44,648 bases of DNA from an uncultured bacterium (GTDB lineage Bacteria; Vulcanimicrobiota; CADAWZ01). Of the stretch, positions 11,144 through 22,758 are shown one piece after another. The translations under genes and the position numbers were made by a program. The stretch is from positions 1 to 44,648 of the forward strand of contig CASEKF010000068.1 of assembly GCA_949288455.1 (NCBI GenBank), read 5' to 3'. The stretch's first letter is position 1. Each line of letters begins with the position of its first letter. Under the pieces are notes generated by a model that worked only from the letters and a program-made list of their open reading frames with translations, did not search any database and was not told the DNA's origin.

Positions 11144-13156
11144 TCAGTCGCGAGATGAAAAAGCGTAAATTTCTCCTTCGTCGCTTGTGCAATAAAGCAT
11201 GCCGTTTACGGCTAACGGTATCGAATTTGCTTTGCCTTTTAGTTTAATTTGTCTGTATACCGTTCCGTTTTCTATATTAGCCGTTAAAATGGTATGTTCC
11301 GGCGACGTCATAAACATAAATGTTCCGGAGATGCAGAATACCGGATTGGATTTAGCCCCGTAGTCTATAGTCCATAATTTTTCTCCGGAGTCTTTGTTAA
11401 AGGCAGAGATCTGTCCGGCCGAAGTTGAACATATTATTTTATTTTCCGATATTGCCGGACCGTGTATCACGGCGCCTTTCATAGACGATGACCATATTTC
11501 TTTCCCCGTTGAGGCGTCTACGCAGAAGATAGTTCCCATTCCGTCTCCGGCATAGAGCCTGCCGTCTTTAGAAAGGGCCGCTCCGGAAGTGAACGACGAA
11601 GACGGAAGCTCCCATTCTACTATTCTGCTTTCTCGATTTACTGCAAGAAGTCCATGAGAAAGAGTAGGAATATACAGTCTCGCTTGATCATATATAATCG
11701 GAGCCATAACTTTGCCTTTAATATTTTCCATTGAGATAGGTTTGCCATCCGTAGGATTTACTTTAACCATGAATCCGTCATAGGAAAGAGTTAGTATCGC
11801 GTCTTTAGTAATGCTTGGAGGGGTGAGAAACATACTTTTAGTTCTGAAATCCCAAAGAGGCTCGTTTTTTTCAAAATCGATTGCGGTTTGACCGGAAGAG
11901 GAGTTAATATACATTATATCATTGTTGATTACCGGCGGCACCGCATTTATATTCAGCGAATATTTTTTTATAATGTGGGCTTTAGTAAAACTTATAAGAT
12001 ATAGCTCTCCTTTGTCCGACAGTACTGTCAAACCTTTGCCGGACGGCTGAAGATAAAATCTTGAGGCTGATTTTACCATTATGCTCCAGGAAAGGTATAA
12101 GAATGGAGAAGGAGCAGTTCCAAAACTATTAAGACGTTTTACGCTTCCTAAATAAATATTCCAGTTGAATTCTGCTTTTTCTTGTTCAGGTAATTCGGGA
12201 GCTTTTTCATACGTTGCTATAATATTTTTTATATCCTGCAAGATATCTTGTATATCGTTGTGTCTGGAGTATTCGTTGAGAAGTTTTTGCGTTACTTGAC
12301 GTAAACTTGGAAACCTGACGTTTTTGGGAACTTCCGTGGGGATATTTATTGAGGATGGGGTTAGATTTTTTCCGCTTATTATATAAAGAAGAGTAAGGCC
12401 AAAGCAGAATAAATCGTATTCAGGCGATATTTTAGAGTTGTCTAGAATTTCGTTTTCAAAAGGATTTTTTATTCCTGTTTCTTTGTAAAATACCGGCATT
12501 CCTATATTTATATATTTTATTTTTTCTTCGTCGTTAACTAAGAAGGAATATGGCAGAATATTACAGCAACAGAACGGCCGTTTTTGCTCTTTTTGAAAAA
12601 AATATAACAATTCCGCAATATCCCTGGCCCATGTTAAGGCCGTCTTTTCGGAAATATACCCGGATTTTAATTTGAGATCTTCAAGATATTCGTCTAGAGA
12701 GCATCCTGTTTGATATTCATAAATAACGGAAAAAGTATCGTTTTCATATTTAGAATCCATAACGCTGCTGAGATTTATATGCTTAAGAGTTTTTAAAGCG
12801 TTTGCTATATATTCTAAATTTTTTCCAATTTTTTCTCTTTCAGGTTTAGTTTTTCCAACAATTCTAAAATCTTTTAGAATATAAAGCCTATCGTTTTTGT
12901 AGTGCTTTACTAAACATACCGTTCCAAATTCGCTGCAGGAAAGAGGCTCTTCTAAAATATATCTGTCCGCAAATAAAACTTCGTCAGTTTCCGCTGATTT
13001 TTTCTCCTCTGCCTCGTCAGTCCGCGTACTGTTTTCTATTGGCTCGCTTACGTCTGACTGATGCGAATTATCTTCTTCGGCAAAGTCGGCAAAGCAGTAA
13101 GGACAGAATTTAAAGCTTTCGTCGACTTCTTTACCGCATTCAAGGCATTTTTTCAT
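11144..13156 (-). CDS. Zinc ribbon-pseudokinase-PQQ beta-propeller protein
   Basis: Three parts: a zinc ribbon (CLEC at 4-7 and CPYC at 18-21), a Ser/Thr protein kinase-like fold at about 64-315, and a WD40/PQQ-type beta-propeller at about 350-670 with repeats of the form G.LYAGDGMGTIFCVDASTGKEIW. The kinase fold keeps the VAIK-type lysine (K95) and a glycine-loop remnant. However, HRD reads CCN (Asn199 in place of the catalytic Asp), the next catalytic Lys is Leu201 and DFG reads NIG (217-219). It is therefore almost surely a pseudokinase. No signal peptide or membrane helix is seen, so it is likely cytoplasmic. AGGAG precedes the ATG. It sits between mscS and the M48 gene and may act as a scaffold or sensor. 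Confidence 0.85.
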   Translation of the reverse strand: MKKCLECGKEVDESFKFCPYCFADFAEEDNSHQSDVSEPIENSTRTDEAEEKKSAETDEVLFADRYILEEPLSCSEFGTVCLVKHYKNDRLYILKDFRIVGKTKPEREKIGKNLEYIANALKTLKHINLSSVMDSKYENDTFSVIYEYQTGCSLDEYLEDLKLKSGYISEKTALTWARDIAELLYFFQKEQKRPFCCCNILPYSFLVNDEEKIKYINIGMPVFYKETGIKNPFENEILDNSKISPEYDLFCFGLTLLYIISGKNLTPSSINIPTEVPKNVRFPSLRQVTQKLLNEYSRHNDIQDILQDIKNIIATYEKAPELPEQEKAEFNWNIYLGSVKRLNSFGTAPSPFLYLSWSIMVKSASRFYLQPSGKGLTVLSDKGELYLISFTKAHIIKKYSLNINAVPPVINNDIMYINSSSGQTAIDFEKNEPLWDFRTKSMFLTPPSITKDAILTLSYDGFMVKVNPTDGKPISMENIKGKVMAPIIYDQARLYIPTLSHGLLAVNRESRIVEWELPSSSFTSGAALSKDGRLYAGDGMGTIFCVDASTGKEIWSSSMKGAVIHGPAISENKIICSTSAGQISAFNKDSGEKLWTIDYGAKSNPVFCISGTFMFMTSPEHTILTANIENGTVYRQIKLKGKANSIPLAVNGMLYCTSDEGEIYAFSSRD

Positions 13157-16013: not shown

Positions 16014-16820
16014 TTAATAAAAGCGCATTACTTTTTTTTGTTTTTCAACAATAAACGCCGTGCCTTCTAAAAAAATACCTTTTATATCTCTGTGTAATAA
16101 TATATCTAAATGAGCGTCGAATCGTTTTTCTTTTCCTATTATCGAACAGGAGAAACTTTGCCTGTCAGAGTTGCTGAATTGCTCTATTAAATTATAAATT
16201 TTCTCCCTGGCCTGATCGTCTATGATGTGCCATATGTGGAGAATTCCTATATCTTCCGGCTCGTAACCCAAAAGAGTTAGAGCCGCATGATTCATAGTTT
16301 TTATTCTTCCTCTGCGACCGAACGTAAATACCGGAACATGGGGCAGATTTTCAACTTTTTCCTTAAAAACTTTCAGTTCGTTCAACTCTTTCTCTATGAG
16401 CTTATTTTCAGTTATGTCAGAGATTATTTCGACTTTTAAATTGCCAAACTCTCCGTATTTTATAACTTTACTTACGCTTCTGTACCATCTTTCGTCAGAT
16501 TTAAACTCTAATGGCAGAGGCTGAATATCCATATTTCCTTGAGCTATTTGAGAATTAACGCACTCTTCGCATGGAGATTTTCTTTTTTTAAGGAGTAATT
16601 CGTAACATTTTTTACCTAGGGGATTAGGTCCTAAAAATTTTTCGGCTATATTGTTTGCGGCTATGATTTTGTATGTGATCGGATCGACAAGATATACCGC
16701 CATTCCGATTTTGCCGAGGATATCAAAGAAAGTATCTATATTTTCCTTTATAAGTTCAGAGTCTAAAATATTAGCTTGTCGCGGAGAACAGGGGAGTTCG
16801 CCGTTATTATTGTTCTCCAT
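16014..16820 (-). CDS. Tandem PAS-domain protein
   Basis: 268 residues with no membrane helix and no output domain. A first PAS domain (about 25-140) contains the CEEC motif often found in the PAS_4-like loop and ends in a VEIISDITENKL PAC-like segment. A short coiled linker leads to a second PAS domain (about 155-262; MNHAALTLLGYEPEDIG). It would work as a signal receptor or binding partner for the adjacent phosphatase/kinase. AAGGAGG lies 4 nt before the ATG. The start overlaps the end of the upstream PP2C gene by 14 nt, a strong sign of stoichiometric expression. The ligand is unknown. Confidence 0.85.
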   Translation of the reverse strand: MENNNNGELPCSPRQANILDSELIKENIDTFFDILGKIGMAVYLVDPITYKIIAANNIAEKFLGPNPLGKKCYELLLKKRKSPCEECVNSQIAQGNMDIQPLPLEFKSDERWYRSVSKVIKYGEFGNLKVEIISDITENKLIEKELNELKVFKEKVENLPHVPVFTFGRRGRIKTMNHAALTLLGYEPEDIGILHIWHIIDDQAREKIYNLIEQFSNSDRQSFSCSIIGKEKRFDAHLDILLHRDIKGIFLEGTAFIVEKQKKVMRFY

Positions 16821-18567
16821 TCCGCCTCCTTATGTTTGTGCCGGTTTCGCTTCTCTTTTTGACCAGCATAGTTACGTTCCCTTTTTCTTCGTCGTACCAG
16901 TAACTGATTTCATCTAGTAACTCTCTAATAAGAAGCAGACCGTATCCTCCGTTTTCCATGCGTTTTGTATTAAACTCATGGGGACATTCTATTATTCTGG
17001 TTGGATCGAAAGGTATGCCTTTATATTTTATTACTACGGTCATTCTGTCTCCGTCTGTCCAGGCTTCGGCCGTATACTGAAGTTTGTTTTCCGTTTGAGG
17101 AAAACCGTACATTATAATATTTACGCAGATCTCTTCGACAGCTATCAGCATATCGTTTATATCTTCTCTTGAAAAATCGCCTCCGGAAGCTACTTGTTCG
17201 ACATATTCCATAGTCTGAGTTATATCTGACATTCTGTCGAATCCTTTTAATGCGAAGGATCTTATAGGAGATTTTTGTTGCGTTCTGTTTATGCCGTCAA
17301 GAAACCTTAACAGTAAAAGACATCTGTCGTCTGAAATTTTATTTTCCGCAAATTTTTCTACTTTTGAAAAGATATGTTCAAGCAGGGTCTTAAGAGGCAT
17401 AGAACGATGCTTTATTAGCTGTTTTTCTAACCTCTTTTCTCCGAATTCGCTTCCGTGCGAATTTATGCATTCCGTTATTCCGTCCGTATACAGGCAGAGT
17501 AAATCTCCTTTTTCTATAAAAAGTTCTTTTTGTTCATAAGTTGATTTTTCTATAACTCCTAAAGGCATTCCTTTTGTTTTAAGATATATAGCTTCCCCGT
17601 TTTCTCTAACTAATATACCGGAATTGTGACCTGCCGAGACGTATTTGAGCGTTTTCTTTTTGATGTCCACTACTAAAAGCAGAGCCGTTACGAACATATC
17701 TATTCTATTGGAATTTCGTAAAAATTCATTCGTTTTTTCGCATATTTTTTGAGGATCATGAAAAAAGTTGCTTACGGTCCACATAATGCTTCTTGCTATG
17801 GCCATAAAAATTGCCGCGGGATTACCTTTGCCGGAAACGTCGGATATTAGAAACAGGTATTTATTTTCTTCAAGCTCTCTCCAATCATAAAAATCGCCGC
17901 CCATCTCTTTCGTTTGAACCAGATTAGCTCTAAATTCAAAAGAAGGTTTTTCAAGTTTTTTTAACGGCAATATCGCGGACTGCATAAAGGAACCGAATTC
18001 AAGCTCTTTTTTCATCCTGTCGCGTTCGCTCGCGTCCGTAAAAAGGTGCGCGTTATGAATGGCTATGGCGGTTGTGCCTGAGATGAATTCCAGAAGTTCC
18101 AAATCGTTATTTGAAAACGGAGGATCGTCATGCCCATTGACGAGCTCTAAGATACCCATTACATTTTGTTTGTTCAGCAAAGGAATACAAACTATATTTT
18201 TGACTTTGACATGCATTTTGCTTTCGAAGTCGGAAACATATCCCGGAAATTTGCTTATATCTTCTATGATGATAGATTTTTTATTCCTGATGCAATAACC
18301 TTTTACTCCTTCGTCCTGAGATATTTCAGCTCCTTTTAACTCAGTCCCTCCGGGATTTATGCAGTTGCTGCATATAGCTTTGCCTTTTTCAGCGTCGTAA
18401 AGCCAGAAGGCTCCGGCCTCCGCGTTCATTTCGTCTACTACGTCTGAGAGAGCGGAGTCCAATAGAAAACTTATATTTATGCTGGAATTAAAAAGTCTGC
18501 CGATTCCGTAATAGAATTTATATCTATCTTCCATCGAAGCTTTTGCTTTGCGAGTGTTTTTTATCAT
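16807..18567 (-). CDS. GAF-PP2C(SpoIIE)-HATPase switch protein
   Basis: Combines opposing activities of a partner-switch in one 586-residue chain. A GAF domain (about 20-175) is followed by an RsbU/SpoIIE-type PP2C phosphatase (about 190-425) with metal-binding motifs GGDFYDW (223-229), SDVSGKG (242-248) and TDGITE (361-366). A C-terminal RsbW-like HATPase (about 435-575) has the N-box VEEICVNIIMYGF and the G-box GGYGLLL (540-546). It should both phosphorylate and dephosphorylate a STAS protein, most likely the one encoded at 15665-16003. Vibrio SypE has the same activities in a different order. No sigma factor gene is seen nearby. It is the first gene of the minus-strand run and is divergent from copA; the start has AAGGG upstream. 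Confidence 0.9.
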   Translation of the reverse strand: MIKNTRKAKASMEDRYKFYYGIGRLFNSSINISFLLDSALSDVVDEMNAEAGAFWLYDAEKGKAICSNCINPGGTELKGAEISQDEGVKGYCIRNKKSIIIEDISKFPGYVSDFESKMHVKVKNIVCIPLLNKQNVMGILELVNGHDDPPFSNNDLELLEFISGTTAIAIHNAHLFTDASERDRMKKELEFGSFMQSAILPLKKLEKPSFEFRANLVQTKEMGGDFYDWRELEENKYLFLISDVSGKGNPAAIFMAIARSIMWTVSNFFHDPQKICEKTNEFLRNSNRIDMFVTALLLVVDIKKKTLKYVSAGHNSGILVRENGEAIYLKTKGMPLGVIEKSTYEQKELFIEKGDLLCLYTDGITECINSHGSEFGEKRLEKQLIKHRSMPLKTLLEHIFSKVEKFAENKISDDRCLLLLRFLDGINRTQQKSPIRSFALKGFDRMSDITQTMEYVEQVASGGDFSREDINDMLIAVEEICVNIIMYGFPQTENKLQYTAEAWTDGDRMTVVIKYKGIPFDPTRIIECPHEFNTKRMENGGYGLLLIRELLDEISYWYDEEKGNVTMLVKKRSETGTNIRRRNGEQ

Positions 18568-18741: not shown

Positions 18742-18981
18742 ATGCAGAACAAAAAACAGTATAAAATAAAAGGAATGACTTGTTCCGCTTGCGCCTCGAA
18801 AGTTGAAAAAGCCGTATCTCAAACGGATGGAGCTGATGTCGTTTCGGTAAATTTGCTGACGAATTCTCTTACCGTTTACGGAGACGTTTCTTCGGAATCC
18901 GTTATTAAAGCCGTTCGGCAAGCCGGCTATGAGGCTGCTATCTCAGACGGATCTCTGATAGCCGCTTCTAAAAAAGCTTAA
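18742..18981 (+). CDS. N-terminal heavy-metal-binding (HMA) domain fragment of CopA, CopZ-like
   Basis: A complete HMA domain of 79 residues, metal motif MTCSAC, which stops at TAA 18979-18981. As translated, it would be a free copper chaperone of normal CopZ size. The same frame continues after the stop into the membrane part of a copper ATPase without any shift, so this is the 5-prime segment of an interrupted copA. The start at ATG 18742 is preferred over a TTG at 18730; neither has a good ribosome binding site. Confidence 0.6.
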   Translation: MQNKKQYKIKGMTCSACASKVEKAVSQTDGADVVSVNLLTNSLTVYGDVSSESVIKAVRQAGYEAAISDGSLIAASKKA

Positions 18982-19269
18982 CAAATAGACAACGGCGTTT
19001 CTGGCGAGTTAAACGTTCTTATTTTTTCTATTGTATTTTCCGGATTTCTTTTTTATATTTCGACCGGTCATGTAATGCGTAATATGCCTATGCCGTTGGA
19101 AGTTTTGACTGTTCCGACAGTAATCGCGGCGCTTCAAGCTCTTTTGGCGTTAACGGTAATGATTTTAAATCGAAGATTTTTTATCGGAGGTTTCTTTGCT
19201 TTATTAAAACGAACTCCGAATATGGACACTCTAGTTTCTTTGGGTTCCGCTTAGTCTTTTTGCTACAGC

Positions 19270-21282
19270 ATGGCGGAGTTATTTGCGATATTTTATGATC
19301 AGGCTTCCGGAAATTTTCATCAGGCGTCTTTTCGTCTTCATAATCTTTATTTTGAATCCTCCGCTTTAATTTTAACTTTTGTCGCTATCGGGAAAACTTT
19401 AGAAGCTTACTCCAAAGGAAAGACTTTAAAAGCGTTAAAAGGATTGATATCCCTTTCTCCTGAAATCGCTTATATATTGGCGGATGGAAAAGAAGTCGAG
19501 GTTCCGGTAGAACAAGTTAAGCCGGGAGATATTTTTGTAGCGCGTCCCGGATCGATTATTCCTGTTGACGGCGTAATAACTAAGGGATTCGGATCTATAG
19601 ACGAATCGGCTTTAACCGGAGAGAGCGTTCCTGCCGAAAAGCAAACGGGAGAAACCGTTTATGCGGGAAAGATTAATTTAGAGGGATTTTTAACTTGCGC
19701 GGCAGTGCAAGTAGGCGAAGATACTTCGTTGTCAAAAATAATTCGACTTGTCGAAAATGCTTCGACGCAAAAAGCCCCGATTTCTAAGATGGCAGATAGA
19801 GTTTCATATATTTTCGTTCCGACGGTGATAGTTATATCGATTTTTACCGCCGCGATTTGGTTAATACTTGGCCAATCATTATATTTTTCGCTTAGTCGAG
19901 CAGTTTCAGTTCTAGTTATAAGCTGTCCATGCGCTTTAGGACTGGCGGCTCCGGTAGCCGTTATGACAGGAAGCGGAGCGGGAGCTAGGCGAGGTATTTT
20001 ATTTAAAACGGCTTCGGCTCTTGAAGAGATGGGAAAAGCTTTGATAATCGCTTTTGATAAAACGGGAACTTTGACTGTCGGGCATCCTGCGTTAAGCGAC
20101 ATAATTACCGCTCCTGGCGTCGCCGAAGAAGATTTGGTATCGTATGCTTCTTCCCTTGAAGCGGGAAGCGAGCATCCTATAGCAAAAGCCGTTTCGTCTT
20201 TTGCAGACGCGGGAAATTTTGCCGTTAAACAGATCGATAACTTTAAATCGTTTCCGGGGAGAGGAGTGACCGGCGAGGTAGGAGGAAGTATTATTTCAGG
20301 AGGCAAATTAGAATTTATAAAGACAGTCGCGTTTGTCCCGGAAGATTTTATTTTGAAACTTGCGCCGTTGTTAGAAGATGGAAAAACTCCTCTTTATTTC
20401 GCTTTAGACTCGAAATTTTTAGGTTGCCTGTTTGTCTGCGATAAAATACGGGAAAGCGCGGGACGAGCCGTTGAAGAATTGAAAAACCTGGGGATCAGGC
20501 CGGTTATGCTTACCGGAGATAGTTTTGCCGCGGCGTCTTTTATCTCGCGGCAAACCGGAATTTGCGAATTCTATGCGGGTTTGCTTCCGGAAGAGAAAGA
20601 AGCGTTAATCCGAAAATTTCAAGCGGATGGTAAGACGGTGATGATCGGAGACGGAGCGAATGATTCTCCGGCTTTGGCTAGAGCCGATATTGGAGTAGCT
20701 ATGGGAGGAGGAACTGGAATCGCTCTGGATTGCGCCGAAGTCGTTTTGATGAAGAACGATCTTTTAGACGTCCCTGCAACGGTTAGACTCAGCCGCGCAG
20801 CGTTAAAAATTATTAAAGAAAATTTATTTTGGGCATTTTTTTATAACGCGGTCGGAATTCCTCTTGCCGCCGGAGTCTGGTTCCCAATTTTCGGCTGGGT
20901 CTTGCATCCCGCTGTCGGAGCCGCGGCTATGGGCCTGTCAAGCGTCTGCGTCGTTTTAAACGCTTTAAGACTGAATTTCTTTAACCCTTATGACTCTTCA
21001 AAGGATGGAAGATATATTAGGACAACAAGAAAAAGAGAAGAAAAATTAACGGAGGTTAATATGGAAAAAACCATACTTGTGCAGAGCGTTACTTGTTCTC
21101 ATTGTACGGCTAGAATAGAAAAGGCTTTGAGAAAGTTAAGCGAAGTCGTAGACGTTCAAGCGACAAGAGATGAAACTACAAATATCGGCACGGCTAAAGT
21201 CGTTCTTTCAAAAGCTGTCTCCGACGCTTTATTGAAAAAAGCAATAGAAGATCAAGATTACGAAGTTATTTCAATAAAATAA
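19270..21282 (+). CDS. copA: Copper P-type ATPase core with C-terminal HMA domain (3-prime fragment of copA)
   Basis: Carries the catalytic parts of a copper exporter: TGES in the actuator domain, the membrane metal site CPC (SCPCALGLAAP), DKTGTLTVG with the phosphorylated Asp, the SEHPIAKAV nucleotide motif, MLTGDS and GDGANDSPALA. After the last helices the chain continues through a charged linker into an HMA domain with TCSHC. The first ATG after the upstream TAG is 19270 and has no ribosome binding site. A product starting there would lack the first membrane helices and is unlikely to transport on its own. A C-terminal HMA fusion is known in Firmicutes CopA proteins. Confidence 0.7.
   Translation: MAELFAIFYDQASGNFHQASFRLHNLYFESSALILTFVAIGKTLEAYSKGKTLKALKGLISLSPEIAYILADGKEVEVPVEQVKPGDIFVARPGSIIPVDGVITKGFGSIDESALTGESVPAEKQTGETVYAGKINLEGFLTCAAVQVGEDTSLSKIIRLVENASTQKAPISKMADRVSYIFVPTVIVISIFTAAIWLILGQSLYFSLSRAVSVLVISCPCALGLAAPVAVMTGSGAGARRGILFKTASALEEMGKALIIAFDKTGTLTVGHPALSDIITAPGVAEEDLVSYASSLEAGSEHPIAKAVSSFADAGNFAVKQIDNFKSFPGRGVTGEVGGSIISGGKLEFIKTVAFVPEDFILKLAPLLEDGKTPLYFALDSKFLGCLFVCDKIRESAGRAVEELKNLGIRPVMLTGDSFAAASFISRQTGICEFYAGLLPEEKEALIRKFQADGKTVMIGDGANDSPALARADIGVAMGGGTGIALDCAEVVLMKNDLLDVPATVRLSRAALKIIKENLFWAFFYNAVGIPLAAGVWFPIFGWVLHPAVGAAAMGLSSVCVVLNALRLNFFNPYDSSKDGRYIRTTRKREEKLTEVNMEKTILVQSVTCSHCTARIEKALRKLSEVVDVQATRDETTNIGTAKVVLSKAVSDALLKKAIEDQDYEVISIK
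21061..21282 (+). CDS. Possible internally initiated CopZ-like copper chaperone
   Basis: Inside the copA frame, ATG 21061 is preceded by ACGGAGGTTAAT, an excellent ribosome binding site with 5-6 nt spacing. Starting there gives a self-contained 73-residue HMA domain (TCSHCTARIEKAL metal motif). The upstream linker codons (LTEVN) encode the site. The same DNA could therefore supply both a tethered domain and a free chaperone. This is an inference from site quality; the domain would also be made as part of any full-length product. Confidence 0.45.
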   Translation: MEKTILVQSVTCSHCTARIEKALRKLSEVVDVQATRDETTNIGTAKVVLSKAVSDALLKKAIEDQDYEVISIK

Positions 21283-21408: not shown

Positions 21409-22758
21409 GTGACTACGGAAAATTTAAGCGAAATGATTTGCGACGTCGCGGTTATCGGAGGAGGAGTATCAGGCTGTGTCGCGGCTATTGCATGCGCTAG
21501 AGCAGGAGCCGATACCGTTTTAATTGAAAAAAGAAATTTTTTATCCGGAGACGCTTTTTATTCTTCGGTAGAAACTATTCTTACTTTTCACAGCCTTAAG
21601 GGTAAATTAATAGTAAAGGGGATTCCCGGTGAAATTATTGATCGGCTTTCCTCGTTAGGAGCTTCCTTAGGCCATGTTAGAGACACCGTAGGAGCGGCCT
21701 GGTCTGTTACTCCCGTTTCCTGCGCGGCTTTAGCTTTGCTGCTGCGCAAAATGTGCCAAGATTCGGGAGTTAAGATCCTGTCCGGAGCCGAACTTTTGTC
21801 TTTGAAAAAAGGCAGCGGGTCTTCCCGTGTGATAACAAGCGGCGTAGTTAAACAGGACGGCAATATGATAAATTTGAAGCCTAGAGTTTGGATAGACGCT
21901 TCCGGACAGCCGCTTTTGGCTTTATTTGGCGGAGGTTCTCTAGTTCGGGATCTTATTTCCAGAAGAATGCCCGGAGCGTTGATATTTCATGTAAAGGACG
22001 TAGATATTAGTCTGATTAAAATATATATGAAAGAAAACAAAGCCGAATTTCATTATGAAACTTTATTTGATTTGCTGGAACAAACGCCGGTTTTAGGCTG
22101 TTCCGGTTTCTTTTCCATGATTAAAGCCGCTTCGCTTCCGGTAGCTAGAGACAGACTTTTGTTTTATCAGACTTTAGCTCCTGACGAAGTCTCCGTCAAT
22201 ACCAGCAGAGTTCCCGCAGCCTTCCAGAGTAAAATTTCTTCGGCGTATTCGGAAGCTCTAAAGCAGGTAAACGCTATTTTTTTATTTATGAAAAATTCGG
22301 TTCCCGGTTTTAAAAGTTCGTATATTTCTTATATAGCTCCGAGTATAGGCTGGCGTGAAAATGGGAGAGGCAAGGGAGTTTATATTCTTTCCGCATCAGA
22401 TGTCGTAAACGGTTCTCGCTTTGAAGATGAAATAGCTTACGGCGGCTTTCCCGTCGATATTCATGACGATTCGGGCAGCGGAATCGTCATGAATAAAATT
22501 GCCGGAGACGGTTTTTACGGCGTACCGTATGGATGCGTTGTCAGCGAAGATTTAGACAATCTTTTTTTTGTCGGGAAAGGATTGTCGGCAGAATTTGAAG
22601 CTCACGCTTCGGTTAGAGTTCAAGCTTCTTCAATGGCTATAGCCGAAGCTGCCGGAACCGCGGCTTATCTTGCCTGCAAGCGAAAACTAGCCCCTAGAGA
22701 ACTTAACGTAGGAGTTTTGAAGGATTTGCTTAGAAAAAACGGAGCTTGTATATTTTAA
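21409..22758 (+). CDS. FAD-dependent oxidoreductase
   Basis: Flavoprotein of the pfam12831-like FAD-dependent oxidoreductase group; substrate unknown. The 449-residue protein begins with a dinucleotide-binding motif VIGGGVSGCVAAIACARAGADT, followed by a glutamate (LIEK) that binds ribose. It ends with the second FAD contact (DNLFFVGKGLSAEFEAHASVRVQASSM). No signal peptide is present. The start is GTG 21409, set by a CCGGAGG site 5 nt upstream. It is preceded by 126 bp after copA and followed by a short stem-loop, so it may be transcribed alone. Confidence 0.85.
   Translation: MTTENLSEMICDVAVIGGGVSGCVAAIACARAGADTVLIEKRNFLSGDAFYSSVETILTFHSLKGKLIVKGIPGEIIDRLSSLGASLGHVRDTVGAAWSVTPVSCAALALLLRKMCQDSGVKILSGAELLSLKKGSGSSRVITSGVVKQDGNMINLKPRVWIDASGQPLLALFGGGSLVRDLISRRMPGALIFHVKDVDISLIKIYMKENKAEFHYETLFDLLEQTPVLGCSGFFSMIKAASLPVARDRLLFYQTLAPDEVSVNTSRVPAAFQSKISSAYSEALKQVNAIFLFMKNSVPGFKSSYISYIAPSIGWRENGRGKGVYILSASDVVNGSRFEDEIAYGGFPVDIHDDSGSGIVMNKIAGDGFYGVPYGCVVSEDLDNLFFVGKGLSAEFEAHASVRVQASSMAIAEAAGTAAYLACKRKLAPRELNVGVLKDLLRKNGACIF

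Follow-up and report, generated by a model that had tools for sequence, protein, structure and literature searches.

A copper-exporter gene with two in-frame stop codons in an uncultured Vulcanimicrobiota bacterium, a probable case of recent inactivation

Introduction

CopA, the copper-exporting P-type ATPase of the PIB-1 class (TIGR01511), is the closest described system to the gene reported here, which retains every CopA motif for catalysis and transport, along with the HMA domains, and yet, unlike CopA, is cut by two stop codons. A second comparison is offered by E. coli, where, according to a review (PMC7558416), frameshifting ribosomes produce a copper chaperone from copA. The short HMA product of this copA/CopA(Z) system likewise ends soon after the first HMA domain; there the signal is a frameshift site, whereas here it is an in-frame stop, followed by a second stop that blocks the full pump. 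The gene can also be set beside the nonsense pseudogenes of bacteria, in which, likewise, stop codons cut a conserved gene whose frame is open in related organisms, in a genome that terminates translation in the standard way. Two stops with no indel would place it at the mild end of that group, from which it otherwise shows no notable difference; no match was obtained when the literature was searched for nonsense pseudogenes in genome assemblies.

Here we analyse a contig from an uncultured bacterium of the Vulcanimicrobiota (CASEKF010000068.1, positions 1 to 44,648; hereafter the window, meaning the whole stretch of 44,648 nucleotides), together with the remainder of its genome (2.13 Mb in 70 contigs) and a set of homologues. 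With a probability of about 0.68, we conclude that the PIB-1 copA gene of the window was recently inactivated by two nonsense substitutions, with no functional suppression of either.

Results

Translation confirmed that positions 18742-21282 encode a complete CopA apart from two internal stops, a TAA at 18979-18981 (residue 80) and a TAG at 19252-19254 (residue 171), with the reading frame constant throughout as far as the terminal TAA at 21280-21282. The first-pass annotation had given these coordinates, named both stops and read the copper-ATPase motifs, all of which were borne out by the translation and a motif search. The frame and its neighbours are laid out as follows.

16807..18567, minus strand: divergent upstream neighbour, an intact GAF/SpoIIE phosphatase/HATPase protein, not a copper gene
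18742..18981, plus strand: first open piece, 79 aa, an HMA (CopZ-like) copper-binding domain with GMTCSAC (PF00403, 1.8e-17), ended by TAA
18982..19254, plus strand: piece between the stops, 90 codons, with the first CopA membrane helices; coding-like and aligned to homologues throughout; ended by TAG
19255..21282, plus strand: remainder of CopA, 675 codons, with E1-E2 ATPase, CPC, DKTGT, GDGxND, YN, MxxSS and a C-terminal HMA domain
21409..22758, plus strand: downstream neighbour, an intact FAD-dependent oxidoreductase

In Pfam searches, residues 7-64, ahead of the first stop, match HMA, and the part beyond the second stop matches E1-E2 ATPase, HAD hydrolase and, weakly, a further HMA domain at the C-terminus, while the piece between the stops (18982..19254), when searched alone, matched no family. 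The motif set of a functional PIB-1 CopA (CPC, DKTGT, TGES, GDGxND, YN and MxxSS) is present, along with CxxC and HP, whereas the single uninterrupted frame of such a protein is not. Using a 3-periodic coding model, all three pieces score as gene-like, and this includes the 31 codons that run from the TAA to the next ATG. The TAG interrupts membrane helices that the pump needs; the first ATG after it, at 19270, lies within a membrane helix, and no Shine-Dalgarno-like sequence was seen by eye upstream of this codon. Elsewhere in the window, the minus strand at 11144-13156 encodes a fusion protein with a protein kinase domain and a PQQ-type beta-propeller. A plasmid origin was considered and rejected, the matches being weak only.

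All 84 rows of our homologue set, in which two family genomes are counted twice, are open at both stop sites, and the inactivating lesion is absent from relatives at the level of the family and beyond. At residue 171 the aligned residue is Ala in 78 rows, Val in 3, Thr in 2 and Ser in 1; since no single substitution turns an Ala codon into TAG, either the ancestor of this gene did not carry Ala here or codon 171 has changed twice. The encoded CopA is about 50% identical to CopA from Clostridia and Treponema. Two of the three other genomes of the family hold an intact copA, of approximately 830-865 residues and 47-50% identical to that of the window. The gene neighbourhoods of these two genes are unlike the window's, and because the window copA is not joined to them in a tree, where it sits on a long terminal branch, strict orthology with the family copA genes is not established.

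At near-invariant sites, the window copA deviates as often as intact family members do (26/237 versus 25/234), and from this equality older decay is not evident. At positions where 80% of outgroups agree, private changes are more numerous in the window copA than in that of family genome G002 (71 versus 45, p=0.02), as they are outside the ATPase core (27 versus 10, for a split chosen after the data had been seen), and in a small set of other proteins this genome evolves no faster than its relative G001. The excess of 71 over 45 fits a mild recent relaxation of constraint without amounting to proof of it; the relative-rate result could instead reflect a separate origin of the window copA, which has the long end branch in the tree. 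The earlier description of the gene as free of other damage therefore holds for frameshifts and deletions, while its wording that everything else is intact was slightly too strong, given the mild excess of changes at conserved sites.

Recent loss is the best supported of the readings that the first-pass annotation had offered, its recency being suggested by motifs that are intact and by a frame that is open and coding-like in composition. As read from the assembled bases, copA is interrupted. Translation from 18742 would stop at residue 80 and yield the HMA domain only; the pump would not be made, because its membrane helices are interrupted by the TAG, and copper export through this CopA would be lost. 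The first-pass annotation linked such a loss to a possible host-associated or copper-poor niche. An ordinary nonsense pseudogene is thus the most likely explanation, and an error in the consensus ranks next.

Comparable lesions are found elsewhere in this genome (G000). A homology screen for interrupted genes, covering about 342 conserved loci, identified a minimum of two further genes that are each interrupted by a single in-frame TGA, with no clear frameshift; in both, the lesion lies near a contig end. In the first (C32:40477; L131/L203/L204), the TGA is at codon 35 of a secreted-type protein of about 400 residues, whose frame is uninterrupted in the family relative G001; in the second (C41:21202; L139/L210), it falls in a large protein that shares 34% identity with a G001 protein of 1811 residues, itself open. 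These two nonsense-only genes suggest that such lesions are part of the genome's background. Most of the apparent internal stops in this screen were antisense shadow frames and were set aside. A genome-wide coding-potential screen gave 187 in-frame-stop candidates, and the 16 that were read looked like tandem genes or weak downstream frames that do not continue the upstream protein. Within the copA frame, 3-5% of possible substitutions are nonsense, and for assumed indel:substitution ratios of 0.2-0.05 the probability of two nonsense changes before any frameshift is 0.02-0.27, so that no special mechanism is necessary and two stops without a frameshift are unremarkable.

The same lesions bear on the strongest rival, an assembly or consensus error, in which wrong or minority-strain bases stand at the two stops while copA is intact in the living organism. 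Such an error, which we judge a real possibility although clearly a secondary one, would be in keeping with a genome fragmented into 70 contigs, with frameshift-free nonsense lesions in C32 and C41 that also lie near contig ends, and with near-invariant residues that are preserved to the same degree as in relatives whose copA is intact; yet a short-read consensus is unlikely to contain two independent substitution errors within a single mid-contig gene of 2.5 kb, and very few genes elsewhere in the genome are interrupted.

Since the first-pass annotation had proposed a search for a second copA, we surveyed the genome for copper-handling genes. Besides CopA, just two P-type ATPases sharing its ATPase domain were identified, KdpB (C42) and a heavy-metal ATPase (C36); the latter passes both the Cd and the Cu subfamily cut-offs, with the higher score for Cd, and by eye is without the copper-type YN and MxxSS motifs. 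Across the genome we found no second copper-type (PIB-1) ATPase, no CsoR, and no HMA domain beyond the two in the copA frame. The window copA is probably the genome's only dedicated copper exporter, and it is possible that the C36 ATPase also transports copper.

It is against this background that the first stop might be seen as releasing a CopZ-like copper chaperone of 79 residues, maintained by selection although the pump no longer works. The HMA domain immediately preceding the stop is complete, keeps its CxxC and is the only one in the genome besides the C-terminal one of the same frame, and the CopZ-like product made from copA by frameshifting in E. coli (PMC7558416) provides a precedent. 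Nevertheless, this domain scores under the CopZ-family profile cut-offs, no intact copper-type ATPase was found in the genome that could receive its copper, it has diverged more than the domain of a relative (9 changes versus 4, a difference that is not significant), and for one stop to land in this linker is not improbable. We consider such a chaperone quite unlikely, and very unlikely the fuller proposal that the first stop is itself retained and copA has thereby been reduced to a free-standing copper chaperone, in an organism that has abandoned copper export entirely.

The recently inactivated copA is also the reading that agrees with how this genome terminates translation. A scan yielded 47 tRNAs and one tmRNA, and none of the 47 has an anticodon reading UAG or UAA, so the genome-wide check for suppressor tRNAs that had been proposed at the outset came back empty. 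Both RF1 and RF2 are encoded, and of 1190 long ORFs 198 end in TAG and 759 in TAA; stop-codon reassignment is rejected by this stop usage together with the release factors and tRNAs. No stable RNA structure was found 3' of either stop (z +1.9 and +1.3). Elsewhere, a selenocysteine tRNA gene (G000:C47:41034-41127) reads UGA only, and prfB, encoding RF2 (G000:C45:39010-40035), carries AGGAG...CTTTGAC, the classical site for programmed +1 frameshifting, by which its apparent internal stop was rejected as a lesion.

Programmed readthrough or suppression of both stops to give full-length CopA, an early suggestion in keeping with the intact downstream motifs and with the C that follows the TAA at 18979-18981 (a leaky context), is contradicted by the failure to find suppressor tRNAs or a stimulatory RNA structure, by the presence of RF1 and RF2 with TAG and TAA as normal terminators, by the lack of either stop in any homologue, and by losses that would multiply over two stops in series, which makes it the least likely explanation of all.

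Discussion

Readthrough or recoding of the copA stops is not supported, and this gene teaches nothing new about genetic decoding. Few genes are interrupted elsewhere in the genome, and the two stops are best explained as ordinary nonsense changes. If real, the inactivation would mean that one species has lost its only recognisable copper exporter, a result of use for annotation and for judging the copper tolerance of the organism.
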